46,885 bases of DNA from Prevotella sp. (GTDB lineage: Bacteria; Bacteroidota; Bacteroidia; Bacteroidales; Bacteroidaceae): assembly GCA_017561825.1 (NCBI GenBank), contig JAFZBK010000018.1:1-46885 (forward strand), given 5' to 3'. The notes beneath the pieces are model-generated. The model saw nothing but the letters and a program-made list of their open reading frames with translations, did no database searches and was not told the origin of the DNA. A program made the translations under genes and the position numbers. The number at the start of each line of letters is the position of its first letter. Within the stretch, counting starts at the first letter, position 1. This document shows, in pieces, positions 9,941 through 34,543 of this stretch.

Positions 9941-10468
9941 ATGTGCAGTTTAGAGTCTTTTAAGATAGATCTGAAAGGGTTGAAAGAAGACGTGACAGTC
10001 TTGGAATACAACCTTGACGAGCAGTTTTTTAAGGCGATGGACAGCACGGAAGTGAACGGTGGAGACGTGCAAGTGTCAGTGTCTATACGCAAGGCTACTG
10101 GCTATTTTGAGCTTCATTTTCAAGTCCGTGGCACAGTAGCTGTTCCTTGTAATCTTTGTTTAGACGACATGGAGCAGCCAGTCGAGACGGATCACCGTCT
10201 CGTGGCAAAGTTTGGAGCAGAAAACTCAGAGGAAGACGATGTCGTGACAGTGAATGAGGACGAAGGAATACTCGATCTGTCATGGCTTGTCTATGAGTTG
10301 ATAGTATTGGCTATCCCCATCAGGCATGTACATGCACCTGGCAAGTGCAATGCAGCCATGATGCATGCTCTGGAAGAGCACTCAACTGACCGAAGCAGTG
10401 ATGAGGAGTCCAACCAGTCTATTGACCCCCGATGGGAGAAACTGGCAACTTTAAACATTAAAGATTAA
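9941..10468 (+). CDS. DUF177 (YceD-like) protein
   Basis: A 175-residue member of the DUF177/YceD family, which is found next to rpmF in most bacteria and has been linked to 23S rRNA or L32 metabolism. The family core VRGTVAVPCNLCLDDM contains C70xxC73. An acidic stretch follows (EEDDVVTVNEDEG), then LDLSWLVYELIVLAIP, which matches the family's second conserved block. The gene starts the housekeeping operon and is followed by rpmF. Its final codons (LNIKD plus stop) are encoded by a 7-bp-period repeat array that continues into the spacer, so the natural C-terminus has probably been altered by the repeat. Confidence 0.9.
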   Translation: MCSLESFKIDLKGLKEDVTVLEYNLDEQFFKAMDSTEVNGGDVQVSVSIRKATGYFELHFQVRGTVAVPCNLCLDDMEQPVETDHRLVAKFGAENSEEDDVVTVNEDEGILDLSWLVYELIVLAIPIRHVHAPGKCNAAMMHALEEHSTDRSSDEESNQSIDPRWEKLATLNIKD

Positions 10469-10491
10469 AGATTAAACATTAAAAATTAAAG
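10455..10491. repeat. Heptad array H1, ATTAAAG type
   Basis: Five consecutive 7-bp units (ACATTAA, AGATTAA, AGATTAA, ACATTAA, AAATTAA) followed by AG. The first units encode the C-terminus and TAA stop of the DUF177 protein, and the rest fills the gap to rpmF. Confidence 0.8.
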
Positions 10492-10501
10492 TAATAGAAT
10501 T

Positions 10502-10690
10502 ATGGCACATCCTAAAAGAAGACAGTCAAAGACTCGTACAGCTAAGAGAAGAACTCATGACAAGGCAGTAGCTCCCACATTGGCTATTTGTCCTAACTGC
10601 GGTGCTTATCATATCTATCACACCGTATGTCCGACTTGTGGCTACTATCGCGGCAAGATCGCAATTGTAATGGATGAAGTAGCTGAATAA
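10502..10690 (+). CDS. rpmF: 50S ribosomal protein L32
   Basis: A 62-residue protein of normal L32 length. It starts [20 protein letters not shown], the basic rRNA-binding N-terminus of L32. It has a zinc-ribbon with C30xxC33 and C43xxC46, so this is the zinc-binding form. It sits between DUF177 and fabH in the usual order. Its TAA stop overlaps the fabH ATG by one base (TAATG). Confidence 0.97.
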
Positions 10691-11691
10691 TGGAGAAAAT
10701 CAACGCAATAATCACTGGCGTAGGTGGATACGTTCCCGATTACGTTCTGAACAACGATGAACTGTCGAGGATGGTTGATACCAACGACGAGTGGATTATG
10801 ACGCGTGTAGGCATCAAAGAACGCCGAATTCTTAACGAAGAAGGTCTGGGTACCAGCTATATGGCGCGCAAGGCTGCCAAGCAGTTGTTGCAGAAGACAG
10901 GTGTGGATCCAGATACCATTGATGCGCTGATCGTTGCTACTTCCTCGGCAGACTACAAGTTCCCCTCAACCGCCAGCATCGTGCTGGGTAAGCTCGGGTT
11001 GAAGAATGCTTTTGCGTTTGACTACTGGGGAGCCTGCTGCGGTTTCTTGTTTGCCCTCGATGTGGCAGCCTCGATGATTCAAAGCGGCCGTTACAAGAGA
11101 ATCATCTTGATCGGTGCTGATAAGATGTCATCGATGGTTGACTACATGGACCGGCAGACTTGTCCGCTCTTTGGCGACGGAGCAGCTGCAGTCTTGCTGG
11201 AAGCTTCGACAGAACAGAACATCGGCGTGATGGACAGCTATCTTCGGGCAGATGGGAAAGGTCTTCCCTTCCTGCATATGAAGGCTGGTGGCAGTGTTTG
11301 TCCTCCGAGTCATTTCACCGTGGATCATCGTCTGCACTACCTCTACCAAGAGGGTAGGACGGTTTTCCGCTATGCTGTGACAAGTATGAGTGACGACTGT
11401 GCGCTGATAGCTGAACGCAATGGTCTGAATAAGGACAATATCCGTTTCGTTGTTCCTCATCAAGCCAACATTCGTATTATCGAAGCTGTGGCAAAACGCT
11501 TGGAACTGACGATGGACAAGGTGCTGGTGAACATTGAGCATTTCGGTAACACAAGTGCTGCATCCATACCACTCGCTCTTTGGGAGAATGAAAGTTTACT
11601 AAAGAAAGGCGACAATCTGGTCTTAACAGCCTTCGGTGCTGGCTTCGTTCATGGTGCCAGCTACCTGAAATGGGCTTACGACAGTGAATGA
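10690..11691 (+). CDS. fabH: Beta-ketoacyl-ACP synthase III
   Basis: A 333-residue KAS III enzyme. It condenses an acyl-CoA starter with malonyl-ACP to begin type II fatty acid synthesis in the cytoplasm. The catalytic triad is visible: Cys116 in GACCGF, His257 in VPHQAN and Asn287 in GNTSAAS. The N-terminus ([18 protein letters not shown]) and [14 protein letters not shown] are typical. The length is normal. The start codon overlaps the rpmF stop, giving translational coupling in the DUF177-rpmF-fabH unit. Confidence 0.97.
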
Positions 11692-11717
11692 AAAGTGAAG
11701 CGTTAAAGTAAAGAATA

Positions 11718-12644
11718 ATGCATAAGGCAGGATTTGTCAATATCGTTGGCAATCCCAACGTAGGTAAAAGTACGCTCATGAACCAGTTGGTTGGTGAGCG
11801 TATTTCAATTGCGACGTTTAAGGCGCAAACGACTCGTCATCGTATCATGGGTATTGTGAATACCGATGATATGCAGATCGTGTTCAGTGATACGCCTGGT
11901 GTTCTGAAGCCCAATTACAAGCTTCAGGAGTCGATGCTTGCCTTTTCGGAAAGTGCATTGGCTGATGCTGATGTGCTGCTCTACGTGACCGACGTGGTGG
12001 AGAATCCGGAAAAGAACATGGAGTTCTTGGAGAAGGTGCAGAAGATGAAGATTCCCGTGATCCTGCTGATCAATAAGATTGATGAGCTGGGTAACCAGAC
12101 TGGCGAAACGGGTAAAAAGAAGGTTGGTTCTACTAGCCAGGCTAAATTGAACAGCTTGGTGGAGAAGTGGCACTCGTTGTTGCCCAATGCGGAAATCCTT
12201 CCCATTTCGGCCAAGAACAAGTTCGGCGTGGATGTGCTGCTGAAGCGCATCCAGGAGTTGCTGCCTGAGAGTCCTGCTTATTTCGATAAAGACCAGCTCA
12301 CTGATAAACCAGCGCGGTTCTTTGTCTCGGAGATCATCCGCGAGAAGATCCTGCTGTACTACGACAAGGAGATACCCTATTCTGTGGAGGTGAGCGTGGA
12401 GAGCTTCAAGGAAACCGAGAAGAACATCCACATCCGTGCTATCATCTATGTGGAACGCGACTCGCAGAAGGGAATCATCATCGGTCATCAAGGCATTGCC
12501 CTGAAAAAGGTTGGTGCTGAATCCCGCAAGGCGTTGGAGCGCTTCTTCGGTAAACCGATTTTCTTGGAAACCTTTGTAAAGGTGGATAAAGACTGGCGCT
12601 CATCGCAGCGTGAACTCAATCATTTCGGATATAATCCTGATTGA
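11718..12644 (+). CDS. era: GTPase Era
   Basis: A 308-residue GTPase that binds 16S rRNA and assists maturation of the 30S subunit. G1 is GNPNVGKST at residues 11-19, G3 is DTPG near residue 58, and G4 is NKID near residue 118. The C-terminal KH domain (about 200-290) includes the family motif [15 protein letters not shown]. It lies 26 bases after fabH and 31 bases before der, probably in the same operon. An insertion of about 10 residues after G4 ([13 protein letters not shown]) is modest and loop-like. Confidence 0.97.
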
Positions 12645-12675
12645 TGTATTTTGTTTACACTCAAAAAGTATTATT

Positions 12676-13989
12676 ATGGCATTAGTAGCAATCGTAGGAC
12701 GCCCGAACGTGGGTAAGAGTACGCTTTTTAACCGCTTAACCAAGAGTCGCCGCGCTATTGTTAGCGAGGAGGCCGGCACCACGCGCGACCGCCAGTATGG
12801 CAAGTGCGAGTGGAATGGTAAGGAGTTTTCCGTAGTGGATACTGGCGGATGGGTGGTGAACTCTGACGATATCTTTGAGGAGGAGATCCGGAAGCAGGTA
12901 ATGGTTGCCACGGAAGAAGCCGATATGGTGCTGTTCCTTGTGGATGCCCAGAACGGTCTGACCGACTGGGATGAGGACGTGGCTGCTATCTTGCGCCGTT
13001 CCAAGCTCCCTGTGATCCTGGTCGTTAACAAGGTTGACAACAACAACCAGTATTACGATTCCTATGAGTTCTACAAGTTAGGATTGGGTGATCCGCAGTG
13101 CATCAGTTCTGCTTCAGGAAGCGGTACGGGTGACTTGCTTGACATGGTGTTGGAGAAGCTTCAGGGTGTAAAAGATGAGACGGATATTGAAGATGGTATT
13201 CCCCGCTTTGCCGTGGTAGGACGTCCGAACGTGGGTAAGAGCAGTATCATCAATGCCTTTATCGGAGAGGATCGTCATATCGTGACGGATATCGCAGGAA
13301 CCACGCGTGACAGTATCTATACCCGTTACGACAAGTTCGGTTTCGATTTCTATCTGGTAGATACCGCAGGTATCCGCAGAAAGAACAAGGTGTCGGAAGA
13401 CCTGGAGTTCTACAGTGTGATGCGTTCTATCCGTGCCATCGAGAACAGTGATGTGTGTATCCTGATGATTGATGCCACCCGTGGTATTGAGACACAGGAT
13501 ATGAACATCTTCCAGCTGATTCAGAAGAACCACAAATCATTGGTGGTTGTGGTGAACAAGTGGGATCTGGTGGAAGATAAGAGTCAGATAGCCGTGAAGT
13601 TCTTCGAAGAGGCTATTCGTAAACGTATGGCCCCGTTCACGGATTTCCCCATCGTATTTGCCTCTGCTATAACCAAACAGCGTATCTTCAAGGTGCTGGA
13701 AACGGCTAAGCAGGTGTATCTGAACAGAAAAGTGAAGATCGGAACGACGAAGCTCAATGAGGTGATGCTACCTCTTATCGAGGCTACGCCGCCGCCATCC
13801 ATCAAGGGCAAGTACATCAAGATCAAGTATTGTTCGCAGATTCCTGACACGCAGATTCCTTCTTTCGTGTTCTATGCGAATCTGCCACAGTATATCAAAG
13901 AGCCTTATAAGCGTTTCCTGGAGAACAAGATCCGTGAGAACTGGGAACTCACAGGCTCGCCCATCAATATTTTCATCAGACAGAAATAA
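12676..13989 (+). CDS. der: Ribosome assembly GTPase Der (EngA)
   Basis: A 437-residue tandem GTPase needed for 50S subunit assembly. The start is the ATG at 12676 ([16 protein letters not shown]). The reading frame is open upstream into era, but that stretch does not resemble Der. The first G domain carries GRPNVGKST at 8-16 and DTGG. The second carries GRPNVGKSS near 182, DTAG and NKWD. The C-terminal KH-like domain ends with [17 protein letters not shown], as expected. The length is normal. Confidence 0.97.
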
Positions 13990-13994
13990 AATCC

Positions 13995-14390
13995 ATGCGC
14001 AAACTCATCGTCATCACCACCTGCTTCATTCTTGCAGCGGTCATTTCCTGTTCACGCGACAAGAAGGTTGATTTTGCAGCAGCTCATGCGGCGAAAGGCT
14101 ACTATGATCTGTTGATCAAGGAGAAATACGATGAGTTTGTGAATGGAATGAATACCCCTGAACAGATTCCCGACGGTTACCGTCAGCAGTTGGTGGACAA
14201 CGTGCGGATGTTCGTGGGGGAACAGAACCAGGAACATGGCGGCATCCGTGAGGTGCGGGTTGTAAACTGTGTGAACGACAGCGTACAGCCTACAGCCAAT
14301 GCCTTCCTCATGCTTTGCTTCGGCGACAGCACCATTGAAGAGGTGGTAGTACCGATGGTCAAGCATGAGGGGAAATGGCTGATGAAATAA
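13995..14390 (+). CDS. Small NTF2-like (DUF4878-type) lipoprotein
   Basis: A 131-residue lipoprotein with signal peptide MRKLIVITTCFILAAVISC and Cys19 as lipidation site. The mature part (AAKGYYDLLIKEKYDEFVNGM, ending MVKHEGKWLMK) has the helix-then-sheet layout of DUF4878/NTF2-like lipoproteins. Its role is unknown. It starts 5 bases after der and ends 4 bases from the convergent GH13 gene. No hairpin terminator is visible between the two. Confidence 0.8.
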   Translation: MRKLIVITTCFILAAVISCSRDKKVDFAAAHAAKGYYDLLIKEKYDEFVNGMNTPEQIPDGYRQQLVDNVRMFVGEQNQEHGGIREVRVVNCVNDSVQPTANAFLMLCFGDSTIEEVVVPMVKHEGKWLMK

Positions 14391-14394
14391 CTAT

Positions 14395-16302
14395 TTAGTT
14401 GAGTTCCACGATCAGTGTTTGTCTGGGACTGAGTGTCACGTTCTGAGAGAGGTTGATCTTCTGACCAGTGATCACATCCTTACCTTCCTTATTTTTTCCA
14501 ATTACTTCCTGATAACGGGCTACCTCAAGGGTGCCTGACTGTTTTTTGCCATTGATGATGGTCAGCACAGTGTGTCCGCGATGTTGACGGGCAATGACAT
14601 ATACTCCCTTATAGGGGATGAACTGTGTCATGCTACCTTTGATGATGGTCTCGTTGCCCTGGCGCCAGTGGAGCAGTCGGGAGAGCCAGTTGAACATCGC
14701 ATTCTCTTCTTGTGTGCGTCCTTCTGCCGTGAAGGCGTTATGGGTATCGCTGGGGAAACCACCGGGGAAGTCCTTGCGCACATTTCCATCCGTCACCTCT
14801 TTCGTTCCGTTCATCAGAACCTCCGTACCATAGTAAAGCTGTGGGATGCGTTTCACGGTGAGCAACAGGGCCAAAGCCTGTTTCAGGGCCACGGTGTCCT
14901 TGCCGTTTCCGAGGAAGCGGTCTGTGTCATGGTTCTCGATGAAGGCCATCACACTGGAGGGGTTCTGATAGAGGTAATCGTAGCAGAACGAGTTATAGAG
15001 GCGGTTCATACCGTGCCACCAGTCGTCTGTATCCTCGTTCTTCGCCATACTGAGTCGGTCGAAGAAGGCGAAGTCCATCACGGTCTTCAGGTAGCTGTTG
15101 TCACTGCTCAGACGACTGTCCTTTTGCCATGAGGCTGTATAGGCAGGCTCTGTTACCCATGTCTCGCCCACCACGTTGAAGTTGGGATATTCATCATCCA
15201 GCGTTTTCATCCAACGTGCCATACCCTTTGCATCCGCATACGGATAGGTATCCATACGAATGCCGTCGATACCGATGGTCTCAATCCACCAGATGCTGTT
15301 TTGGATGAGATAGGTCATCACATGCTCATTCTTTTGGTTCAGGTCGGGCATGGTAGGTACGAACCAACCTTCAACCGTTTCCTTCAGGTCGATCTTGGAT
15401 GCGTAGGGATCTTTCACAGGAGTAAGCTTATAGCTGGTCTGCAGGAACTGGGTACCTGTGGGATCACTGCTACCCTTCGACTCCTTCAGCCAATCGGGCA
15501 GGTTCAGCCAGTCCTTGGTGGGCATATCCTGTGTCCAAGGATGTTCGAAACCACTGTGGTTGAAGATCATATCCATCACGATCTTCAGTCCTTTGGCATG
15601 TGCCTCATCGATGAGACGACGATAATCCTCATTGCTGCCGAAACGGGGATCAACGCGATAGTAATTCGTGGTGGCATAGCCATGATAGGTGGAGAATCCG
15701 TTCTCGTTATCCGGAGAGTCGTTTTCCAGCACGGGGGTGAACCAAAGCGCTGTGACGCCTAACTCCTTGAAATAGTCGAGATGCTCACGGATACCGTTGA
15801 GGTCGCCACCGTGACGAAGGCTCGGCTGACTGCGGTCTTCGACATACTGACGCATGCCTTTGATCTGTTTCGGGTGATTCGCTCCCTGCGCAAAACGATC
15901 AGGCATGAGCATGTACAGCACATCGGCATTGGTGAAGCCCATTCGCTTCTCTCCGCTCATCTCCCGCTGTTTCAGCAGGTAAGGGATCTTGAACTTTTTC
16001 TTTTGTGTCTTGAATTGTAAAGTCATCGTTCCAGGCTGAGCGTTTCTCACGTTCATGTATACCAGGAGGTAGTTGGGGGAATCGAGGCGTACCAGACTGT
16101 CGATGATCACACCGGGATAATCGGTAGTTACATCTGCCACATCGCGAATGCCCTTGCCATAGACCATTAACTGCACGGAGGAGTTTTTCAGTCCTACGAA
16201 CCAGTTGGTAGGTTCTATCCGGTCGATTACTGTCTTCTTGTCTGCCCCCTTTGCCACAACGCATGTCATCAGGATGGCCATGAATAAGAAAAATCTTCTC
16301 AT
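14395..16302 (-). CDS. SusA-like GH13 neopullulanase/alpha-amylase
   Basis: A 635-residue secreted GH13 enzyme that cleaves alpha-1,4 bonds of starch or maltodextrins. The start is the ATG at 16302 (MRRFFLFMAILMTCVVAKG, signal peptide); two codons upstream is only a TTG. The N-terminal domain (about 25-125, PTNWFVGLKNSSVQLMVYGK) is the cyclomaltodextrinase-type N domain found in SusA. The catalytic residues are D351 (GIRMDTYPYA), E380 (VVGETWV) and D459 (ENHDTDRF). VMDMIFNHSG is the usual region I. The C-terminal beta domain ends TLSPRQTLIVELN. It lies 37 bases downstream of the hybrid regulator on the same strand. A periplasmic location is inferred. Confidence 0.93.
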   Translation of the reverse strand: MRRFFLFMAILMTCVVAKGADKKTVIDRIEPTNWFVGLKNSSVQLMVYGKGIRDVADVTTDYPGVIIDSLVRLDSPNYLLVYMNVRNAQPGTMTLQFKTQKKKFKIPYLLKQREMSGEKRMGFTNADVLYMLMPDRFAQGANHPKQIKGMRQYVEDRSQPSLRHGGDLNGIREHLDYFKELGVTALWFTPVLENDSPDNENGFSTYHGYATTNYYRVDPRFGSNEDYRRLIDEAHAKGLKIVMDMIFNHSGFEHPWTQDMPTKDWLNLPDWLKESKGSSDPTGTQFLQTSYKLTPVKDPYASKIDLKETVEGWFVPTMPDLNQKNEHVMTYLIQNSIWWIETIGIDGIRMDTYPYADAKGMARWMKTLDDEYPNFNVVGETWVTEPAYTASWQKDSRLSSDNSYLKTVMDFAFFDRLSMAKNEDTDDWWHGMNRLYNSFCYDYLYQNPSSVMAFIENHDTDRFLGNGKDTVALKQALALLLTVKRIPQLYYGTEVLMNGTKEVTDGNVRKDFPGGFPSDTHNAFTAEGRTQEENAMFNWLSRLLHWRQGNETIIKGSMTQFIPYKGVYVIARQHRGHTVLTIINGKKQSGTLEVARYQEVIGKNKEGKDVITGQKINLSQNVTLSPRQTLIVELN

Positions 16303-16339
16303 AATCAAAAGTATTAATTGTTAGTATTGTTAGATGCTA

Positions 16340-19300
16340 TTATAGATGCTCCTTGTACTCCGTCGGTGTGGTGCCGAACTGTTTCTTGAACACGACGGAG
16401 AAATGACTTTGGGTACTGAATCCGCATTTGACGGCGATTTCGGCAACGGTGTATTTGCCGCTCTTCAGCAGTTCAGCCGCCCTGTTGAGCTTATAAGTAC
16501 GGAAGAAGTTACTGGGTGTCTCGCCTGTCAATCCTTTGATCTTATAATAGAGCTTGGTGCGCGAGATCAGCAACAGCTTGGTAATACGTGTCACATCCAG
16601 TTCCGGATTGGACAGCTCTTCCTCCATGAGCTTGTAGAGCTCTTCCATGAAATGCTTGTCTTGTTCGGAGAGGATATCCTCCACCTGCTCGTCCTCTGTC
16701 GTAGTGGCCTTGGTCAGCAGCTTATGAACACGCTCGCGGTTTTTCAGTTGCGACTGGATCAGCGCGGACAGCACGGCAGGTTCGAAGGGTTTGGTGACAT
16801 AGGCATCCGCACCGACATTCAGTCCTTCCACCTGATTCTCGGCCGTGATCTTGGCCGTGACGAGGATGACGGGGATATGACAGAGCTGGATATCCTGTTT
16901 GATCTCCTGACAGAGCTCATAGCCGTCCTTGCCGGGCATGGCCACATCGCTCAGTACGAGATTCGGCTCTTCTGCCCGCATTTCCTCAAGGGCCGTATCG
17001 GCATCAAGACAGGTGATGAGTCGATAGTCTTGCGAGAAGAGCAACCGCATGTAATTGATGATTTCCGTGTCATCATCAACGATGAGTATCGTAGGACGGT
17101 CATCTTCGGTATGTTCGGCAGTGGATGTTGCGAGGGGAGCGACTGCTGGTTGCGGGGTGTCGATGATGCGGAAGTCGGCAACGCCATCACCTTCCAACGG
17201 TCTGCGCTCTTCTTCCGTATATGACTGTTCCGTCATGGGATAGATGAAGGTGAAGACGGCTCCTGTACCAGGCTCACCAATCCGTGACTCCTCCCGATTG
17301 CTGGCGGTCAGACTACCATGGTGCAGTTCTGCCAGACGACGGGAATAGTAGAGACCAATGCCCGTGCCCCAGTTCACCACCGCCTTGGTCTGGTTGTCGA
17401 GCTGGTAGTAGCGCTTGAAGATGTTCTCCTTCTGTTCCTCGGGAATACCCTTACCCGTATCAGCTACGCTCACTTTTACCTGGTTATCCACCACATCGAG
17501 CTGTACATCAATCCTGCCTCCACGAGGTGTGAATTTGAGGGCATTCGACAAAAGGTTCGACACAATCTTCTCCAGCTTGTCACCATCCGTCCATGCCAAC
17601 AGCGAGTCTTCCATGCCGAAACGGTTCAGGGTCAGTCCCTTCTCTTTCATATTAAACTCGAAGGTGTCGCAGATATCATTCAAGGCCTTCACCACATCCA
17701 TCTGCTCCACGCTCAGGCGCAGGGTGTCGTTCTCCAGTTTGTTGAAGTCCATCAACTGGTTCACGAGCTTGAACATTCGTTGGATGCTGCGCTGGGCAAT
17801 GCTGAGCAATCCCTTGTCTTCACCACTGAGGTGGCCGCTCTTGACGAGCTGTCCTACAGGACCGGCGATCATCGTTAGCGGGGTGCGGAACTCATGGGCG
17901 ATATTGGCGAAGAAGCTCATGTTCATCTGGTTGGTCCGCAGCTCCTGTTCCTTCTCCATCTGTGCCTGACGGGCTGCCCTACGGGCTGCCACCACACGCA
18001 TGGTGTTTCGGTAGAGGTAGTAGGCGAGGGCAGCAGCGAGGGTCAGGTAGATCAACCATGCCCACCACGAATAGGCAGGTGATGGTTGCACCACTACGCT
18101 AATCGTTCGCTCATCGCTGTTCCCCTCATCGCTGGCGCTGTCGGTAGTCCGCACCCGGAAGGTGTAACGACCTGATGGCAGGTTGGCATAGCTGGCAGAG
18201 TGGTTGCTGCCCGCATCCATCCAGTCATCATCGAAACCATCTAACTTATAATAATAATGTACACGCTCATACTCTCCAAAATCAAGGGCTGTGAACGAGA
18301 TACTGAAACTGTTCTGTTTATGGGTAAGACGGATTTCCTTGCAGCTGTCGAGCATCTCCGTGATAGGTCCGCCATCGGCTGGGCGTACCAGTTGGTTGTG
18401 GATCTTCAGATGACAGAATCTCAGTGGAATCTTCCTCAGCGTGTCGATATCTTCAGGATTGAACATGGTGATACCATCAGTTCCGCCAAATACCAGACTG
18501 CCGTTGGGCAACTGACAAGAAGCGCGGTCGCAAAACTCATCACCAGCCAGTCCGTCAGCCTTGTACAACGAAGTGATACGTCCTGTCTTGGCATCCAGTC
18601 TGTTCAGTCCTTTCATCGTACTGATCCAGAGGTTACCCTGTCGGTCTTCCTCAATGCTACCCACATCGGAACAAGAGAGACCGCCGATGCGGGACATAGT
18701 ATTGTCTTTGGGATTGTAACGCAGCAGACCATTGCTCACGGTACCTATCCATACATCGCCTTGGGAATCCTGATGCATGTCGGTGGGGATATAGACACTC
18801 TTGCGGATGCACTGCTGCATGTCGGGAATCTTGAGCTGACTCAGCTTACCGGTCTGGGGATTCATCTTGACAATATCCTGATAGAAGGCCGAGATGAGCA
18901 TCGTGCCGTCGTTGAGTTTCAGCAGGGAAGGGATGAACGTGAAATCAACATTGAAGGTCTGTTTGGCTTCAGGTTCTTGAGAGGCGTTGGGATGGAAGCC
19001 GAAAATATATGTGGTACTCGTAGCTGCCCAAACCGTACCATCATCCGTCTGCTCAAAGTCCATGGCCATCGGTACGGGCCACTGACCGAGGATGTTCAGT
19101 CGTTGACCGTCGTAACGACATTTCATCACAATGTTACTGGTCGAGAGCCAAAGCAGTCCGTCGCGGTCGCAGAAGATATGGTTTACCGCATTCTTCGTCT
19201 CGCCTGTCGGCAGACCTTCAATGACGATCTGCTCAGCCTTCTGCGTGGTAGTATGATAGACGAAGACACCCTTCAGCAAGGTAGAGACCCAGAGGTTCTC

Positions 19301-20398
19301 CTGCTTATCCACTGCCACTGCTAACACCGAAGAGTTGTCGATGATACGGTTCAGATAGTTGTCACTACCTCCGAATTTCTCTTTGTAATAGTAGTCGGCA
19401 AAGAGTCCTTTATCGTAGGTACCCAGCCAGATATTCTTTCTAGAGTCTTGGAAGATCTGTGTCACATAGGCATCAGGAACAGGAAGCGTGAATCCCGCAT
19501 CACCTTCACCACAGAGTGTATGGGTGAGCAGGTTCATCTCGAACAGACCGTTGTGTGAGGTGCTCAACAGGATGGTGTTGTTCTCTAACAGACAGGCTGC
19601 CTGTACCACACTGCCGTGAGCCAGCAGGCGTGCTTCCATCTCCTGACTAAGTGGTACGAATTGGCGAGCCTTGGTATCAAAGAGCATCAACGAACCATTA
19701 CCGGAAGAGAGAAGTAATCCGTTTGACAGCAGGTCGAAATAGTAGAAGCCTGTACCATTGGGATGTTTGAGCTCCATGCGTTGCTTAAAGGTATTACCGT
19801 CGTAGATCAACAGGTTCTCCGGTCCTACCAGCAGGAAATCATCAGCAGCATCGATAAAGCAGTCACCCCACGACTGGTTGGTGATCTGTCTGCTGATCTT
19901 TGGCAGGAAGATATGATGCACCTCGTCGTACATCAGCACCTCCGAGCCATTATATACAAACAATCGCCCTTTGCTGTCCATCAACAGCTTGCGGGCATTA
20001 CGGTTACCCGTCTGCATCGGTATGCGTTCGAAGTTGTCCTTTTTCGTATAGCGACACACCCCATTCACCGTGGCCACCCACAGACATCCGTTCTTGTCGC
20101 ACAGCAGTCCTTGCACATTATTATCAGGCAGTCCTAATGAGTCTTCCGTACAGAAATACTGATGGTACTCATGACCGTCATAGCGGTTCAGTCCGCGGAA
20201 CGTGGCAATCCACAACTGTCCTGTAGCATCTTCCTCGATATCTTGCACACGACTGTTCGACAGTTCTTGCGAAATCACCAGTCCGTGTTCCTCATCCTTG
20301 TCACGCTGCTGCACAGGTTCTGTCTTCTGACATGCTGTTAAAACACATGCCAGGAGTACTGCCATCAATGATACTCTACCTCCCAATACTTTAGTCAT
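16340..20398 (-). CDS. Hybrid two-component system regulator (HTCS) of the PUL
   Basis: A 1352-residue one-protein two-component system. The order is: signal peptide with a lipobox-like LTAC (Cys23); two-component-regulator propeller blades at about 45-690; Y_Y_Y domain at about 690-772; a membrane segment at about 779-800; HisKA with H in NIAHEFRTPLT near 835; HATPase at about 936-1036 (DTGKGIPEE, WGTGIGLYYSRRL); receiver with phospho-acceptor Asp near 1150 (VLSDVAMPGKDGYE); and AraC-type HTH at about 1253-1352. In this family the periplasmic propeller binds an oligosaccharide and the HTH activates the adjacent susCD operon. It is divergent from susC and upstream of GH13. A lipobox is unusual for an inner-membrane sensor. 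Confidence 0.95.
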   Translation of the reverse strand: MTKVLGGRVSLMAVLLACVLTACQKTEPVQQRDKDEEHGLVISQELSNSRVQDIEEDATGQLWIATFRGLNRYDGHEYHQYFCTEDSLGLPDNNVQGLLCDKNGCLWVATVNGVCRYTKKDNFERIPMQTGNRNARKLLMDSKGRLFVYNGSEVLMYDEVHHIFLPKISRQITNQSWGDCFIDAADDFLLVGPENLLIYDGNTFKQRMELKHPNGTGFYYFDLLSNGLLLSSGNGSLMLFDTKARQFVPLSQEMEARLLAHGSVVQAACLLENNTILLSTSHNGLFEMNLLTHTLCGEGDAGFTLPVPDAYVTQIFQDSRKNIWLGTYDKGLFADYYYKEKFGGSDNYLNRIIDNSSVLAVAVDKQENLWVSTLLKGVFVYHTTTQKAEQIVIEGLPTGETKNAVNHIFCDRDGLLWLSTSNIVMKCRYDGQRLNILGQWPVPMAMDFEQTDDGTVWAATSTTYIFGFHPNASQEPEAKQTFNVDFTFIPSLLKLNDGTMLISAFYQDIVKMNPQTGKLSQLKIPDMQQCIRKSVYIPTDMHQDSQGDVWIGTVSNGLLRYNPKDNTMSRIGGLSCSDVGSIEEDRQGNLWISTMKGLNRLDAKTGRITSLYKADGLAGDEFCDRASCQLPNGSLVFGGTDGITMFNPEDIDTLRKIPLRFCHLKIHNQLVRPADGGPITEMLDSCKEIRLTHKQNSFSISFTALDFGEYERVHYYYKLDGFDDDWMDAGSNHSASYANLPSGRYTFRVRTTDSASDEGNSDERTISVVVQPSPAYSWWAWLIYLTLAAALAYYLYRNTMRVVAARRAARQAQMEKEQELRTNQMNMSFFANIAHEFRTPLTMIAGPVGQLVKSGHLSGEDKGLLSIAQRSIQRMFKLVNQLMDFNKLENDTLRLSVEQMDVVKALNDICDTFEFNMKEKGLTLNRFGMEDSLLAWTDGDKLEKIVSNLLSNALKFTPRGGRIDVQLDVVDNQVKVSVADTGKGIPEEQKENIFKRYYQLDNQTKAVVNWGTGIGLYYSRRLAELHHGSLTASNREESRIGEPGTGAVFTFIYPMTEQSYTEEERRPLEGDGVADFRIIDTPQPAVAPLATSTAEHTEDDRPTILIVDDDTEIINYMRLLFSQDYRLITCLDADTALEEMRAEEPNLVLSDVAMPGKDGYELCQEIKQDIQLCHIPVILVTAKITAENQVEGLNVGADAYVTKPFEPAVLSALIQSQLKNRERVHKLLTKATTTEDEQVEDILSEQDKHFMEELYKLMEEELSNPELDVTRITKLLLISRTKLYYKIKGLTGETPSNFFRTYKLNRAAELLKSGKYTVAEIAVKCGFSTQSHFSVVFKKQFGTTPTEYKEHL

Positions 20399-23685: not shown

Positions 23686-23717
23686 AATTGACAATTTACA
23701 ATTGATAATTGACAATG
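23686..23717. repeat. Heptad array H2, AATTGAC type, susC/susD junction
   Basis: Four consecutive 7-bp units (AATTGAC, AATTTAC, AATTGAT, AATTGAC) and then AATG. It begins 2 bases after the susC stop. The AATG that ends it contains the first possible susD start codon (23715). Confidence 0.8.
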
Positions 23718-25286
23718 AATATGAAAAAGAATCTATTATATATAGCACTGATGGCCATGATGTCGCTGGCCTTCACAAGTTGCGACAGTGAGCTCGACAT
23801 CGAGAAGCACGGCAATCTGGGAAGTATGGACACTTACTACATCAATGATGCAAACGTGAACGCTGCCACTGCCTCTATGTATCTGGAGATGCGCGGCAAC
23901 TACTTTAACTGGTTCTTCACCAAGAACCTGCTCTCTGACGATATCTGGACTGGTGGTGGCTCACGCAGCGACAATGCCAGTATGGAAATGCTCAATGAGT
24001 ACACCTTCGGTACCGACCATGGTATGGTTGAGGGCTTGTATTCCGGTCTGTACTCGATTATCTACAAGGCTAACCTGATTATCGACAAGGTAACGGGTGA
24101 GACACCTGTCATGAAACGTGCCATCAACGAGGCAAAGGTGGTTCGAGCCATCGCACACTTCGAGTTGGTAACCCTTTGGGGTACAGCACCCGTGGTGAAC
24201 CATCTGCTTACTCCTGATGAGTATCGTCAGGGCAATAGCACACCAGCCGACCTGTGGGCACAGGTGGAGACCGACCTTACCGAGGCCATCAGCTCTGGTA
24301 CGCTGCCTTCAAAGAGCGATGCGAACGATCAGGAAACTGGTATCCGCATCACCAAGGAGACGGCACAGGCCTTCCTTGGCAAGGCTTACCTCTTCCAGGG
24401 TAAGTACAGCGAGGCTGCTTCCATGCTCGATAATGTGATCAATTCCGGCAAGTATGCCCTCTTTACAGGTGACTATGATATGCAGTTCCATGCAGCTTAC
24501 AACAACAACTGTGAGTCGATCCTGGAGCTTCAGCGACGTAATGACAGTGAGCAGCTCTGGACTCAGATGGACATGACCTTCATCATGCAGGGCTGGCGTA
24601 CTGATAAGCTGAACTATGGCGGACAGGCCGTGAACGTTCTTGCTCAGGGTATGTACGGTTTCAGCAATCCCCGTAAGTCACTCTACGATACCTTTGCTGC
24701 ATGGGAAGGCACCAACGGCTATCGCATGAACAAGACCATCATGACCTACGATCAGGTGGAGGCCTTCGGTGTTTCTGTCCAGACAGGTTCGTTCCTTTAT
24801 GGCAACGAGGGTTATTTCTTCTGGAAGAATCAGGCTTTCAAGGAAGACTGCATCACTGATATGTCATTCTTCCAGGTGGGTCAGTACACCAGTCTGAAGG
24901 TGATGCGTTATGCTGAGGTTCTGCTGATGGCTGCCGAGGCTCATCTGCAGGCTGGCAACAGTGCCAAGGCGCTCGACTACATCAACCAGATCCGCACACG
25001 TGCCAAGGAGTCTCCTCTGGCTGCTGTTACACTGAATGATATCAAGACTGAGAAGCGCTTGGAGCTCTGTAACGAGTGCGTGCGCTATCAGGATCTCGTC
25101 CGCTGGGGCGATGCTTCCTCTGCCATGAGCAGTCAGGGTAAGGATATTCCCGTATATGGTGCTGACGGTGCACACTGGAACTTCCATAACGACAACTATG
25201 GCTTCAAGGATAAGAACAAGCTTCTGCCCATTCCTCTCAAGGAGATTGACCTCAATCCTAACATGACGCAGAATGAAGGATGGTGA
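23715..25286 (+). CDS. SusD-like surface glycan-binding lipoprotein
   Basis: A 523-residue lipoprotein from the ATG at 23715; the ATG at 23721 (MKKNLLY) is equally plausible. The signal peptide ends SLAFTSC (Cys23). Family features are the N-terminal helical region, a TPR-like segment (EAKVVRAIAHFELVTLWG, typical of the RagB/SusD domain) and the C-terminal VMRYAEVLLMAAEAHLQAG followed by IRTRAKES. The end reads LLPIPLKEIDLNPNMTQNEGW, the standard SusD ending. It caps SusC and delivers glycan to it. The gene follows susC by 30 bases across a heptad repeat array. Confidence 0.95.
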   Translation: MNMKKNLLYIALMAMMSLAFTSCDSELDIEKHGNLGSMDTYYINDANVNAATASMYLEMRGNYFNWFFTKNLLSDDIWTGGGSRSDNASMEMLNEYTFGTDHGMVEGLYSGLYSIIYKANLIIDKVTGETPVMKRAINEAKVVRAIAHFELVTLWGTAPVVNHLLTPDEYRQGNSTPADLWAQVETDLTEAISSGTLPSKSDANDQETGIRITKETAQAFLGKAYLFQGKYSEAASMLDNVINSGKYALFTGDYDMQFHAAYNNNCESILELQRRNDSEQLWTQMDMTFIMQGWRTDKLNYGGQAVNVLAQGMYGFSNPRKSLYDTFAAWEGTNGYRMNKTIMTYDQVEAFGVSVQTGSFLYGNEGYFFWKNQAFKEDCITDMSFFQVGQYTSLKVMRYAEVLLMAAEAHLQAGNSAKALDYINQIRTRAKESPLAAVTLNDIKTEKRLELCNECVRYQDLVRWGDASSAMSSQGKDIPVYGADGAHWNFHNDNYGFKDKNKLLPIPLKEIDLNPNMTQNEGW

Positions 25287-25291
25287 TATCC

Positions 25292-25326
25292 AATTGAGAA
25301 TTGAAAATTGAGAATTGAAAATTCTG
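25292..25326. repeat. Heptad array H3, AATTGAG type
   Basis: Five consecutive 7-bp units (AATTGAG, AATTGAA, AATTGAG, AATTGAA, AATTCTG) between susD and the esterase lipoprotein gene. It begins 5 bases after the susD stop. Confidence 0.8.
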
Positions 25327-25348
25327 AAGACTCATAATTGATAAAGAC

Positions 25349-28206
<2,858 letters not shown>

Positions 28207-28213
28207 TGTTCCA

Positions 28214-28247
28214 AAAGTTCAAAGTTCAAAGTTAAAAGTTAAAAGAT
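28214..28247. repeat. Heptad array H4, AAAGTTC type
   Basis: Five 7-bp units (AAAGTTC, AAAGTTC, AAAGTTA, AAAGTTA, AAAGATA) fill the gap between the esterase gene and the GH3 gene. The last unit abuts the GH3 ATG at 28248. Confidence 0.8.
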
Positions 28248-30641
28248 ATGAGACGTTTATCATTTATCATTTGTACATTATCCATTGGCGCAGTGTTGGT
28301 GGGATGTACTTCTTCCGACAAGGCAACCATGAACACCATCAATCAGGAAGAGGTGATGGCCCAGTTCTCGCTTGAGGACAAGGCGCACTTTGTGATCGGT
28401 ACAGGTATGGCAGGCTTCACTGGCGATGATGCCGTGATTGGAGCCACCCGCAGTCTGGTACCTGGAGCTGCAGGTACTACTTACCCCTTTGATTCCTTAG
28501 GCATCCCCGCCGTTGTATTGGCCGACGGTCCTGCGGGCTTGCGTATCGATGCTACCCGTCAGGGCGACTCCGCCACTTACTACTGCACCCACTTCCCCAT
28601 TGGAACCCTGCTGGCTTCTACCTGGAACACCAAACTGGTGGAGCAGGTGGGTAAGGCCATTGGCGAGGAAGTCAAGGAGTATGGTGCTGACGTACTGTTG
28701 GCTCCTGCCGTGAATATCATGCGTAACTCACTTTGCGGTCGTAACTTCGAGTACTATTCAGAGGATCCTGTGGTGGCTGGTAAGACCGCCGCTGCTTATA
28801 TCCTTGGTGTACAGAAGAACGATGTGGGTACGAGCATCAAGCACTTCGCTGCCAACAACCAGGAGACCAACCGCATGAACAACGATGCGCACATCTCCCA
28901 GCGTGCCCTGCGTGAGATCTACCTCAAGGGCTTCGAGATTGCTATCAAGGAAGCGAAGCCTTGGACGGTGATGACTTCCTACAACTACATCAATGGTGTC
29001 TATACCTCTGAGAGCAAGGATCTCGTTACCACTATTCTCCGCGATGAGTGGGGCTATGAGGGAACGGTGATGACCGACTGGTTCGGTGGTAAGGATGGTG
29101 CTAAGCAGATGTGGGCTGGTAACGATATGCTCCAGCCGGGTAAGAAAGAGCAGTTCGACTCTATCGTGGCTGGTGTGAAGAGTGGTAAGTTGGATGAGGC
29201 TGATCTCGACCGCAGTGTTCGTCGCACCCTTAACCTCGTAGAGCGCAGTCCTCGCTACCAGGGGTACAAGTATTCCAACAAGCCCGACCTCAAGGCGCAC
29301 GCTGAAGTAACACGTCAGTCGGCTGCAGAAGGAATGGTATTGATGAAAAATGGAGCCACCCCCGACCCATCCAAAGAGAGGGGAGAGGTTCTTCCGCTCA
29401 AGGAGAGCGTGAAGACTATTGCGTTGTATGGTAATACCTCGTATGACTTCATCGCTGGCGGTACAGGTTCGGGTAATGTGAACCATGCATACGTGGTATC
29501 GTTGCTCGACGGACTGAAGAATGGTGGCTACATTGTTCCTGAGGAAATGAAGTCAGCTTATGAGCAGCATCTGGCCGACTGCAAGAAGAAGGCCGAGGAA
29601 GCCATTGAGGCTGCCATCAAGAAAGATCCGAAGAATGCTCAGTTGATGCGCTTCATGCCACAGCCGCTACCCCCAGAGAAACTCTTCACTGAGGAGGAGC
29701 TGACCGCACAGGTTAACATTGCCGACGTGGCCATCATCACCCTCGGTCGTATCTCTGGTGAGTTCCTTGACCGCAAGGTATCCGACTTCAACCTCAGTGC
29801 TTCTGAACGTATGCTGATCGAGCAGGTATGCGATGTGTATCACAAGGCTGGCAAGCAGGTGGTGGTACTGCTGAATATCGGTGGTGTCATCGAGACGGCT
29901 TCTTGGAAGGATCTGCCCGATGCCATCCTTTGTGCTTGGCAGGCTGGTCAGGAAGGTGGTAACAGCGTTGTGGATGTGCTCAGCGGCAAGCAGTCGCCTT
30001 CGGGTAAGTTCACCATGACATGGCCCGTGGCATTCACCGATGCTTACTCTTCCAGAAACTTCCCCATCGATCAGGATCCGCGTATCGACATGCTGAACCA
30101 GGGCAAGAAGGGTAATCTGAAGAATGTTGACTATACCGACTACGAGGAGGATATCTATGTGGGCTATCGTTACTTCGACTCGTTCGAGGTACCTGTGAGC
30201 TATCCTTTCGGCTTCGGACTCAGCTACACCACGTTTGAGTATTCTGATGCTAAGATCTCTCGTAAGAACGACATCTTTGACATTACTGTTACGGTGAAGA
30301 ATACGGGTAACTATGATGGCAAAGAGGTGGTAGAGCTCTATATCTCGGCTCCCGACAACAAGGCGAAGAACAAACCTGCTAAGGAGCTGAAGGCCTTTGC
30401 CAAGACCAAGCTGCTGAAGCCCGGTGAGAGCGAGACACTGACGCTGAGTGTGACAACCCCTGAGCTTGCTTCGTTTAACGAGGAAGCATCTGCCTGGGTG
30501 GTTGACGAGGGTGAGTATCAGTTCCTCGTAGGCGCTTCTTCACAGGATATCAAGGCCACCCTCACTGCTGATGTCAAGAACATGCAGACCAAGGTGAACG
30601 ATGTGATGAAACCGCAGGGAAAGATGAATCTGCTGCGTAGA

Positions 30642-30650
<9 letters not shown>
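28248..30650 (+). CDS. GH3 beta-glycosidase lipoprotein
   Basis: An 800-residue GH3 enzyme (lipobox AVLVGC, Cys20), most likely a beta-glucosidase or beta-xylosidase acting on oligosaccharides. The N-terminal TIM-barrel contains LADGPAGLR, the GRNFEYYSEDP loop, SIKHFAANNQETNR and the nucleophile D277 in VMTDWFGGKD. The second domain carries VVVLLNIGGVIETASW and AWQAGQEGGNSVVDVLSG. A C-terminal FnIII-like domain begins near 690. An unusual feature is an in-frame G/C-rich repeat at 29352-29388 (residues 369-380, GATPDPSKERGE) between LMKN and VLPLKES, where GH3 enzymes usually have only two or three residues. The final codons and stop are inside a heptad repeat array. Sequence alone does not fix the substrate. 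Confidence 0.92.
29352..29388. repeat. G/C-rich element in frame inside GH3
   Basis: The element begins GGAGCCACCCCCGACCCATC and continues with CAAAGAGAGGGGAGAGG. The intergenic element at 34549-34578, read on the minus strand, starts GGAGCCACCCCCATCCCCTC and also continues CAAAG. It encodes GATPDPSKERGE and keeps the frame open. Confidence 0.7.
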
Positions 30651-32024
<1,374 letters not shown>

Positions 32025-32028
32025 ACAC

Positions 32029-32068
32029 AATCATCCCCAGCCAAACGGCTGGGGATGATTGTTTCTTG
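32029..32068 (+). terminator. Rho-independent terminator of the PUL operon
   Basis: A 14-bp perfect stem (AATCATCCCCAGCC at 32029-32042 with GGCTGGGGATGATT at 32047-32060) and a 4-base loop AAAC, followed by GTTTCTTG. It lies 4 bases after the esterase stop codon. Confidence 0.9.
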
Positions 32069-32137
32069 TAGGAGCCAACGCTATTCTTGTGGCTCCTTCT
32101 TCTCTAAGAATCACTCAAAGGTACATATGAGTAAGAA

Positions 32138-32398
32138 GCCTACTTACTATGAGAAAGTGGCCTAGTTTGAGGTGGTAATCAGCCTAGTTACTATGAGAAA
32201 GTAGTCTAGTTTCTTTATGAAGTTTATGTGGAATATTTCTCCGCTAAACTCTCTAATTCTCTGTAAACTAAAAAGATGAAGGCGGAGGAATTGGGAGGCT
32301 TACATTTGACATGCTTGGAGGCTTTATTCACCTCTGAATGAAAGAATTCCTCCGCCATCATATTTCTGATATATAGATAGTTAAAGGACTTAGCGGAG
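32138..32398. repeat. Direct repeat followed by nested inverted repeats in the 32025-32649 gap
   Basis: This gap holds no credible gene apart from regulatory sequence. A direct repeat of about 31 bp with 3 mismatches lies at 32138-32168 and 32182-32212 (core CTATGAGAAAGT). An outer inverted pair CTCCGCTAA (32239-32247) and TTAGCGGAG (32390-32398) encloses an inner pair GGCGGAGGAATT (32281-32292) and AATTCCTCCGCC (32345-32356). It could be a structured RNA or a mobile-element remnant. I cannot assign it. Confidence 0.5.
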
Positions 32399-32609
32399 TA
32401 ATAATAGAAAGTATTAGGAAGCCCAAAGAACGAATGTGTTATGGGGATTCTAAGAATCTTAGGATCTAATGGATTGGGGAGTAGTGCTGGCAGATGCCGG
32501 TCCCTTAGTACCCTTTATTAACTATCTTCGCACCTCATCATAGTTAGTGCGTTTTTTGCCACAACACAAAATTCTCCCCCTGATTATTCCATTGTATTGT
32601 TTTTTTTCG

Positions 32610-32617
32610 TATCTTTG
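32610..32617 (+). promoter_or_regulatory. -7 element upstream of the HsdM-like fragment
   Basis: TATCTTTG matches TAnnTTTG and is 33 bases upstream of the ATG at 32650. The upstream region is T-rich, without a TTTG at standard spacing. Confidence 0.5.
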
Positions 32618-32649
32618 TACCGCTTAAATTCAGTATTTCCGAAAAGACA

Positions 32650-32796
32650 ATGGCATTTGAATCATCATTTAAAGCAATAGATAATACACTGCATTACAAT
32701 AACGGGTGTGGCAAAGCACTAGAAGGCATCATGGCACAGATCATGGGAGACTTGTGGGAAGATAACAATGGCGAACCTTCGCTCTTTGGAGATTAA
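32650..32796 (+). pseudogene. Possible N-terminal fragment of a type I HsdM-like methylase
   Basis: A 48-codon frame. Its first residues (MAFESSFKAIDNTLHYNNGC) resemble the start of type I restriction-modification HsdM proteins as I recall them (FK.IDDILHKDAGC). After about 22 residues it departs and ends EDNNGEPSLFGD. A full HsdM is about 500 residues, so this is either a truncated remnant or a small leader peptide. Its TAA overlaps the ATG of the DUF4062 gene (TAATG), so it is probably translated. The HsdM identity is by recollection of the motif only. Confidence 0.45.
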
Positions 32797-34442
32797 TGCA
32801 GGACGGACATGAGTTACAATTGAAAAACATGGCAGAAATCAGAATATTTATCAGTAGTGTGCAAGTGGAATTCGCCAGTGAACGAAAGCGACTTTGCAAC
32901 TATATCCGACAGGATGCGCTGTTGGGGCGCTTCTTCATTCCTTTCATCTTCGAGGAACTTCCTGCCCTCAACGCTTCTGCACAAGAAGCCTATCTCACAG
33001 AGGCTAGTCAATGCGATATTTACTTAGGACTCTATGGTGAGCAATATGGCTATGAAGATCATGACGGTATTTCACCCACAGAGCGTGAGTATGATGTAGC
33101 CACCCAGCAGCACAAGCATCGACTGATCTATTTGAAGAATGTCCCAACCCGCCATTCTAAAGAAGAACGCTTTATTCATAAGGTGGAACAAGACGTGGTT
33201 CGTAAGACCTTCGATACCTATGATGACCTGCGTACAGCAGTATATACATCGCTGGTACGCTATTTGGAAGAGAAGGAGTATCTTAGGCTGTTGCCATTTG
33301 ATGCTACCTTCCATCGTACGGCGACAATTGATGATATAGACCCTTCGAAAGTGGAGTTGTTTGTCAACCTGGCACGTGACCGCCGTAAATTCCCCATCCC
33401 ATTCAGTGCTGGCATCCCCAAAATACTGACACATATGAATCTGATGGCCGAAGACGGGAGGCTGACAAACTCAGCCTTGCTGCTTTTTGCCAAAGATCCG
33501 CAAAAGTTCTTTATAACGTCAGAAGTAAAGTGTGCACAATTCTATGGAACCAAAGTTGAGAAGCCTATTCCATTCTATCAGGTTTTCCGTGGTAGCTTGT
33601 TTGAACTTGTTGATCAAGCCGTAGGCTTCGTTATGGGTCATATTGATGCCAGAGTGGGTGATCGTTCTAAATCGACATCCGTTGATGTTAGCTATGAGCT
33701 CCCGGTTAAGGCTGTTACTGAGGCTATTGTAAATGCTATCGTTCACCGTGATTATTCCAGTAATGCCAGCGTGCAAGTGATGCTGTTCCGCGACCGTCTG
33801 GAAATCCTGAATCCAGGAACGCTACCTTTCGGTCTTTCGCTGTCTCAGCTTTCGAAAGAACATTCTTCGGTTCCGACCAACCCAATATTGGCTAATCCTG
33901 TCTATCTTGCTGGATATATAGAACGCTTGGGTACAGGTACAACTGACATTATTGATCAATGTGAGGCTATGGGTCTTCCCACCCCTCAGTTCCAACAAGA
34001 GGCTTTCTTCAAGGTAATTATTTATAGGAAGTTGAAGGATGCAGGAAGTAATAATGATAATCCCGTACAAAGTAATAATGATTATAAGCTTAATGGTGAG
34101 TGTATAAAAGGGGAAGGGGAAACATCTATTATAGGTAATAATTATGTACAAAGTAATAATGATAGTAACATTGATAGTAACATTCATCAAGTAGTACTTG
34201 ATATCAACACTTTGAACTATCAACAGCAAGTGGTTATCAACTACTGTTATATTCCTCGCACCAGTAAGGAAATATTGCAGCGCCTTGGCCTGACACGGCA
34301 GACAAAGAATATAAAAACTTATATTACTGATCTCGTTGAAAAGGGATTCCTTAGAATGATTGACCCTGAACATCCCAGAAGCAAAAATCAAAAATACATC
34401 AAAGCCATAGAGCAGCAAGAAGAGATCAACAAGAACAAGTAG
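32796..34442 (+). CDS. DUF4062 plus AlbA/RecG-like ATPase-domain protein, possible defence or regulatory protein
   Basis: A 548-residue protein. The ATG at 32796 overlaps the preceding stop; the ATG at 32829 (MAEIRIFISS) matches the domain start better. Residues of about 14-110 are DUF4062 (RIFISSVQVEFASERKRLCNY, YGYEDHDGISPTEREYDVA), a TIR-like fold often found in defence proteins. Residues of about 200-410 resemble the HATPase_c_4 region of AlbA/RecG-like putative transcriptional regulators (ITEAIVNAIVHRDYS-like AVTEAIVNAIVHRDYS, GTGTTDII). An Asn-rich linker with two copies of VQSNND follows, then a C-terminal winged helix at about 475-540. Genes like this often sit inside type I restriction loci, which fits the fragments on both sides. 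Confidence 0.8.
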   Translation: MQDGHELQLKNMAEIRIFISSVQVEFASERKRLCNYIRQDALLGRFFIPFIFEELPALNASAQEAYLTEASQCDIYLGLYGEQYGYEDHDGISPTEREYDVATQQHKHRLIYLKNVPTRHSKEERFIHKVEQDVVRKTFDTYDDLRTAVYTSLVRYLEEKEYLRLLPFDATFHRTATIDDIDPSKVELFVNLARDRRKFPIPFSAGIPKILTHMNLMAEDGRLTNSALLLFAKDPQKFFITSEVKCAQFYGTKVEKPIPFYQVFRGSLFELVDQAVGFVMGHIDARVGDRSKSTSVDVSYELPVKAVTEAIVNAIVHRDYSSNASVQVMLFRDRLEILNPGTLPFGLSLSQLSKEHSSVPTNPILANPVYLAGYIERLGTGTTDIIDQCEAMGLPTPQFQQEAFFKVIIYRKLKDAGSNNDNPVQSNNDYKLNGECIKGEGETSIIGNNYVQSNNDSNIDSNIHQVVLDINTLNYQQQVVINYCYIPRTSKEILQRLGLTRQTKNIKTYITDLVEKGFLRMIDPEHPRSKNQKYIKAIEQQEEINKNK

Positions 34443-34507
34443 CGCTCAAATTGAGTAGAAACGATAAGGAGATTGCCGCACTGACCGAATGGCTGATGCC
34501 AAATTGA
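34442..34507 (+). pseudogene. Possible C-terminal remnant of an HsdS specificity subunit
   Basis: A frame overlapping the DUF4062 stop reads ALKLSRNDKEIAALTEWLMP and then AN-stop. The end resembles the C-terminal helix of type I specificity subunits as I recall it (EIA.LT..R.WLLPMLMNGQV). The stop codon lies in a heptad repeat array, as if the array had cut the gene off. The match is short and based on recollection only. Confidence 0.3.
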
Positions 34508-34543
34508 AAATTGGAAATTAAAAATTAACTATTATCTATTAAC
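34502..34543. repeat. Heptad array H6
   Basis: Six 7-bp units (AATTGAA, AATTGGA, AATTAAA, AATTAAC, TATTATC, TATTAAC) just downstream of the DUF4062 gene. It contains the stop of the possible HsdS remnant and is followed directly by the G/C-rich element at 34549. Confidence 0.75.

Follow-up and report, generated by a model that had tools for sequence, protein, structure and literature searches.

Short arrays of seven-base period at gene boundaries of a Prevotella genome: a fixed core, a free base and turnover between species

Introduction

Intergenic heptamer repeats are already known in bacteria, and heptamers are over-represented among the longer repeats of many bacterial genomes, for which polymerase slippage has been proposed (PMC4679880 and PMC4692102 in their available parts, citing Mrazek 2007); no accepted explanation for this dominance is offered in the literature covered. 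In Xanthomonas, the accessible text of Rehm et al. 2015 (PMC4692102) describes GGGAATC arrays that have degenerate positions and inverted partners and consist mostly of four units, a number it ties to the minimum for a quadruplex; TAACTGA direct repeats, reported from Beggiatoaceae, Cyanobacteria and five Bacteroidetes, were proposed by MacGregor 2015 to be translational regulators (PMC4679880, as far as its available portion goes). Here we describe a family of short period-7 arrays found in a 46,885-nucleotide stretch of Prevotella sp. (GCA_017561825.1, contig JAFZBK010000018.1; hereafter the window) and followed through its own genome, a sister species and further congeners. Most consist of a six-base core plus one free base, lie between genes and number about four units; at some junctions the sister species carries an unrelated unit instead.

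Like the GGGAATC and GGGGA(C/T)T arrays of Xanthomonas and Nostoc, as described in the available parts of PMC4692102, those of Prevotella have a degenerate 7-nucleotide unit, are dispersed and mainly intergenic, prefer four units (here in the pooled count and in AATTGAN, though some cores lack the preference), have inverted partners nearby, and vary in length and sequence among related species. They differ in that one G-rich, quadruplex-capable unit was studied per genome in those organisms, whereas many cores occur here, many of them AT-rich and without G-tracts, and in the unrelated units found at some junctions of the sister. The TAACTGA repeats share the 7-nucleotide period, a position mostly just 5' of start codons in one orientation, a mostly extragenic location, a translatable reverse direction and a sporadic distribution; they differ in being a single exact unit with 2-6 copies in the main genome and up to 43 elsewhere, and the accessible description mentions neither a free position nor unit swapping (PMC4679880). 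TAACTGA is not among the units listed here, a list drawn up without a genome-wide search for TAACTGA itself. The long simple repeats of Mrazek et al. 2007, as reported by the papers citing them, show the same period-7 excess; those series are longer than statistically expected, whereas the present arrays are short, with degeneracy at a single position. A literature search, with most subscription papers outside its coverage, returned no title or abstract on Prevotella arrays, on AT-rich units whose seventh base is free, or on unit swapping.

Three regularities have to be accounted for by any model of these arrays: the unit combines a fixed core with one free base; run lengths peak at four in units that cannot form quadruplexes; and a single operon gap can hold unrelated units in two sister species.

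Period and abundance

A match-at-lag scan of the window yields seven tracts of period 7 and no more than one at each of the other periods between 2 and 30, except 14 (four tracts) and 21 (one); its threshold misses a weaker array at 23686-23716, which is recovered by a separate array listing. The window and 19 further stretches of the same genome (417,636 bp) contain 54 period-7 tracts, and, once multiples of 7 are set aside, the highest counts at the other periods between 2 and 30 are nine (period 22) and seven (period 9). The 202 pieces called intergenic (35,066 bp together) contain 25 period-7 tracts, versus a mean of 0.0 in ten dinucleotide shuffles; the gene calls behind this count, as well as those behind the gap and placement counts below, come from custom open reading frame (ORF) scripts. 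Shuffled spacers were the yardstick that the initial annotation of the window had itself proposed, and the tracts clearly exceed it. The pattern AATTN3AATTN3AATTN3AATT, which is its own reverse complement, matches 201 times per strand in the genome, versus 37 times for the reversed pattern. Period-9 arrays also occur, with an ACTAG/CTAGT core plus about three free bases and, in several cases, at least four units (C2:40307-40347, C13:35608-35667 and C12:6493-6534 in the own genome; C29:5460-5544 in the sister).

Unit structure and run length

A typical array (28-32 bp) has about four units, each made of a six-base core and one free base, and the commonest is (AATTGAN)4AATT, of 32 bp; among 130 array lengths in 617 kb, exactly 32 bp is the most frequent value (25 cases). 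A shared period with differing units, noticed originally in the window, extends to several unit families: AATTGAN, ATTAAAN, ATTAAGN, AAAGTTN, ATTATGN, GCAAGAN, GGAGTGN, GGAATGN, GAGGAAN, GTGAGAN and others.

Exact AATTGAN runs of two, three, four, five, six and seven units number 20, 14, 50, 5, 1 and 1, respectively. Pooled over 14 cores, which were chosen from already-found arrays and with the 7-kb locus L065 counted twice because it also lies in stretch C26 of the sister, there are 144 runs of two units, 57 of three, 116 of four, 14 of five, four of six, and one each of seven and eleven; the reversed sequence gives 95, 15 and 12 runs of two, three and four units and none longer, the 12 coming from two cores only. 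Runs of at least five units are rare for every core tested. Since the score threshold of the period scan under-counts the three-unit class, the four-unit peak rests mainly on these exact-core counts. In the whole genome of the sister, 90 AATTGAN windows of 25 bp, grouped by hand, form 53 arrays, 19 of which comprise one window, 31 two windows (32 bp) and three three windows, with none longer.

The free bases spell 31 distinct four-letter codes in a set of 32 arrays, each of four or more exact AATTGAN units, drawn from the own genome and from stretches chosen in other genomes; by simple arithmetic about three coincidences would be expected if they were random, and one is found. Over all arrays, 96 of 2502 core positions are deviant, whereas 137 of 235 pairs of adjacent free bases are unequal, a contrast partly built in since the free position is defined as the most variable one; the share of deviations that fall in the most variable phase is 0.53, versus 0.40 in a simple null. 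Because the phases were taken from the data, both counts favour the six-plus-one picture.

Placement and orientation

Placement and orientation were assessed in larger sets, 617 kb of the own genome (92 arrays) and 749 kb of the sister (157 arrays). The latter is genome G413, Prevotella sp. isolate Tb.RUG.501, which is listed again as G469 with identical counts and coordinates and includes locus L065; its FabH is 98% identical to that of the own genome. Some stretches of the sister set and of the sets from other genomes were picked for having AATTGAN arrays or matching genes, and this biases array densities upward there.

Called genes contain only 21 of the 92 own arrays, where 300 random placements put 71.8 on average, and only 32 of 157 in the sister, versus 124.1 at random placement; the association with gene boundaries first seen in the window thus exceeds chance in both species. 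Between codirectional genes, many arrays span the distance from stop codon to start codon, and in 12 of the 32 exact AATTGAN arrays an ATG follows directly on the 3' side (by eye). In codirectional gaps of up to 200 bp, the strand reading ATTGA is predominantly the sense strand (sense:antisense, 15:4 in the own genome and 29:3 in the sister); within genes the ratios are 1:5 and 2:7. In these codirectional gaps, stops in all three frames are found on the sense strand of 25 of 41 own and 38 of 57 sister arrays, and on the antisense strand of 16 of 41 and 8 of 57. When folded as RNA, three of four single arrays are no more structured than shuffled sequences, and the fourth has z = -1.67. Start sites of Bacteroidetes, according to the available part of PMC6847099, depend on unstructured A-rich leaders and not on Shine-Dalgarno pairing. 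Enrichment of k-mers in array flanks was uninformative, being dominated by the conserved rpmF/fabH region. At loci L065-L144, AATT often stands directly before the rpmF ATG whatever the spacer (by eye); AATT also ends the AATTGAN arrays.

Turnover between species

The comparison is interspecific, with one genome per species, and treats the two arms of one hairpin as two arrays. Of the 92 own arrays, 27 could be mapped to the sister by both flanks: 15 are absent there, including both arms of a hairpin element of the window (30642 and 30742), eight have a similar unit (distance 0 or 1) and four an unrelated one (distance 3), three of these four at the same spot and C11:123714 in a 374-bp gap. 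Conversely, 28 of the 157 sister arrays map to the own genome, where nine are absent, 13 are at distance 1 and six at distance 2 to 4. Turnover between related genomes, for which the initial annotation had proposed comparing strains, is borne out between species, and its view that the arrays reflect more than descent of one repeat is supported.

At two junctions, the grpE-dnaJ gap and C12:30163 (the latter with flanks 95 and 93% identical), AATTGAN in the own genome corresponds to an AGTTCAN-type array in the sister; at C11:117661 and C13:22284 of the own genome, the core is kept and changes affect mostly the free base (by eye). A search with grpE matched 51 of 60 genomes, and across the 30 loci listed the coding ends are near-constant while the spacer ranges from overlap to 160 bp and holds arrays of various units or none. 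The picture at proC-xre is alike, with different arrays or none across species (45 of 60 genomes matched, 30 loci listed, both genes in order in 26), and the DUF177-rpmF spacer, wherever both genes could be located, measures between 5 and 177 bp.

In a phylum sample, 16 of 296 genomes contain AATTGAN windows, and in a genus sample 77 of 150 do (own genome included in both), with 1 to 162 matches per genome in the genus; AGTGAAN windows are present in 73 of the 150. Single genomes can strongly prefer one core, with 150 AATTGAN versus 1 AGTGAAN windows in the own genome and 6 versus 87 in G031. In two congeners, the 120 kb scanned per genome contains no tract of period 7.

Inverted pairs

Among 33 pairs of arrays lying 20-150 bp apart, 20 are inverted, none is direct and 13 are of other kinds. 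Inverted pairs form strong hairpins and, where they lie between convergent genes, as at least two do in the own genome (C13:56212-56324 and C1:5480-5606), could serve as terminators. Some flank a conserved 21-base box, GAGAATAGTACTGAGATACAG, which with up to two mismatches has 31 matches in the sister, four in the own genome (C1, C11, C13 and C50, among loci L172-L200) and matches in 10 of 100 genomes of the genus, several seemingly by chance. In this conserved multi-copy sequence the hairpin pairs resemble miniature inverted-repeat transposable elements (MITEs). Their cores differ between copies and are common to both arms of one copy, with an identity between arms of 0.95 at core positions and 0.68 at the most variable one. 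A search of Rfam with the window and five stretches (146,885 bases) gave no match at gathering scores.

Arrays of the window

All seven arrays listed in the initial annotation were recovered, each no more than a few bases from the positions given there, and an eighth had been overlooked; except for one hairpin arm, they are read here on the plus strand. Two of the seven fall short of the exactness attributed to them: the units of 30642-30681 are irregular, and the unit of 34501-34544 changes half-way. Their contribution of coding signals is confirmed at all three places claimed. The array at 10447-10490 (core ATTAAA plus a free base, about six units) supplies the C-terminus and stop of the DUF177/YceD protein, whose ORF ends at 10468, and leads into rpmF; no 7-bp array is called at this junction in the sister. 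At 23686-23716, four units of core AATTGA plus a free base, one of them deviant, occupy the gap between the SusC stop and the SusD start, with the first SusD ATG at 23715 on the edge of the array. The GH3 stop is contained in the left arm of an inverted pair (30642-30681, ATTAAGN-like), the ORF ending at 30650. This arm is followed by a 60-bp hairpin-element interior (30682-30741), whose right end, judged by eye only, is similar to the interior of GC-armed elements elsewhere, and by a right arm with core ATTAAG on the minus strand (30742-30776). The pair at 30642-30776 has a fold z of -4.46, and the element is absent from the sister.

Of the remaining arrays, an exactly 32-bp (AATTGAN)4AATT lies 3' of the SusD stop (25292-25323); four AAAGTT units with a free base and a decayed fifth unit, predicted to be unstructured as RNA, separate an esterase gene from GH3 (28214-28248); and a composite array passes from AAATTGA-like to ATTAACT-like units (34501-34544). 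Two weaker 7-bp rows are found at 28256-28272 and 14278-14297.

The eighth array, (AATTGAN)4AATT plus one base at 42643-42675, lies inside the GH97 gene, which is encoded on the minus strand, and is read there in a stop-free direction. The gene has ten extra residues at this site compared to its relatives, and the array is absent from all 29 of the relatives' loci compared and from the sister.

Discussion

Our leading explanation, plausible rather than probable, is that the arrays are written nearly en bloc, that their positions are filtered by selection and that slippage contributes. Short tandem arrays would arise repeatedly and turn over quickly, each laid down in about one event, not unit by unit, by a polymerase re-aligning on a very short template. 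Insertions into genes would be purged except in a stop-free direction, and arrays would in this way gather between genes; in operon gaps, an A/G-rich, weakly structured and stop-rich sense strand might be tolerated, or even favoured, as a leader beside the start codon, and some arrays may later be put to use as leaders or hairpins. Free-base codes that are almost all different, together with the few cases of an exchanged whole unit, speak against slippage as a purely unit-by-unit process and likewise against copies having been dispersed.

Several observations weigh against near en bloc writing. Neither AGTGAAN (11, 6, 6, 1 and 1 runs of two to six units) nor ATTAAGN (4, 7, 2, 0 and 1) has a four-unit peak, TATGAAN forms nine two-unit runs and none longer, and longer arrays do occur, such as the seven units at C2:69708 of the own genome. 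In exact AATTGAN arrays, 38 of 101 neighbouring pairs of free bases are identical, versus an expected fraction of 0.28, and over all cores the rate is 0.42 versus 0.26; this excess points to some local duplication of units, not to wholesale copying. About 20 bp around the GH97 array are also replaced, so that it is not a clean insertion. Units are not significantly more alike within than between genomes (19 genomes, p = 0.55); the notion that the unit follows the genome was dropped on this direct test, a strong contrast appearing only in the per-genome counts of two cores. Matches to RVT_1, a blunt proxy, are found in six of ten array-rich and seven of ten array-poor genomes, several of them incomplete and "poor" meaning no match to two cores only; there is thus no association with reverse transcriptases, and no enzyme was found.

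Replication slippage would begin from a chance 7-bp duplication, which would then gain or lose single units where spacers tolerate this, polymerase geometry favouring seven. The general heptamer excess and the proposal already made for it (PMC4679880 and PMC4692102 in their available parts, citing Mrazek 2007), the similarity of adjacent free bases and the declining run-length series of some cores all speak for this mechanism; the peak at four and collapse at five in the pooled and AATTGAN runs, the nearly unique codes, and the difference of a whole unit at a few junctions between species that diverge by about 10-15% in the flanks speak against it. As sole cause, slippage from a local seed was set aside on the run lengths, codes and unit swaps, and the mechanism as a whole is judged unlikely. 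Much the same doubt attaches to selected binding sites, still a rival to be reckoned with, in which a DNA- or RNA-binding factor would read a six-base core at seven-base spacing about four times, leaving the seventh base unread, with cores differing as factors differ. Such sites would suit the free base, the preferred unit number, the strong sense orientation and the frequent abutment on ATG (12 of the 32 exact arrays), and translational regulators have been suggested for TAACTGA repeats (MacGregor, PMC4679880, available part). They fit poorly with many unrelated cores in one genome, with the same array form inside the GH97 coding sequence, with an unrelated core at the sister's grpE-dnaJ, and with the 73 of 150 congeners (own genome included) without an AATTGAN window, the 77 without an AGTGAAN window and the two without tracts. 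The initial annotation had suggested one generating mechanism or a spacing constraint; a spacing rule alone is not supported, since arrays of the 32-bp form also lie in coding sequence and similar arrays serve as hairpin arms, and a single mechanism is not established.

That the arrays are arms or relics of transposing MITE-like hairpin elements is improbable. The hairpin family with its 21-base box and the prevalence of inverted over direct pairs point that way, but the box is kept while arm cores differ between copies, the exact AATTGAN arrays are not copies of one another, and no target duplication was established in a survey that did not include a search for transposases. G-quadruplex elements, as put forward for the four-unit GGGAATC arrays of Xanthomonas, share the period, the four-unit preference, the inverted pairs and the gene-end location (PMC4692102, available part). 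AATTGAN, ATTAAAN and AGTGAAN, however, have no G-tracts, and AATTGAN nevertheless peaks at four; quadruplex formation is therefore not the general reason for four, and it is excluded by sequence for the AT-rich arrays, to which this check applied, GC-rich cores lying outside it. As an account of the family as a whole it is hardly credible.

A more specific and decidedly speculative form of near en bloc writing, which we consider rather unlikely, is a DNA-writing activity, dedicated or a by-product, that would lay four core copies with a random seventh base per event and replace the core of existing arrays, across many Prevotella-like genomes and perhaps in Xanthomonas too. A telomerase-like polymerase re-aligning on a short template would fit the structure AATT + 4 x GANAATT. 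The A-B-A' template logic of DRT10, as given in the available part of a preprint (PMC12632851), would yield AATT + n x (GAN AATT) if A were AATT and B were GAN; DRT10 differs in making protein-primed complementary DNA with 9-nucleotide repeats in the main example, and chromosomal capture is not reported in the accessible text. No DRT10 was identified here. If the arrays are written in one step, a so far undescribed DNA-synthesis activity would shape intercistronic spacers; if they are bound, this group would possess a large, so far undescribed regulatory code.

Other features of the window

Spacers of the window also contain 22-bp and 11-bp tandem repeats, at 32126-32211 and 34980-35033, unlike the 7-bp arrays. 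The region 32796-37781 encodes a DUF4062/ATPase-domain protein and, after it, an McrB-like AAA_5+EVE protein. The distance from fabH to GH97 is 31 kb in the window (about 11700-41500) and about 11 kb in the sister (C26: about 4100-14600), where part of the intervening genes must hence be missing or lie elsewhere; the GH3-esterase junction is retained there. The sequence GGCTTCGCC adjoins two arrays.

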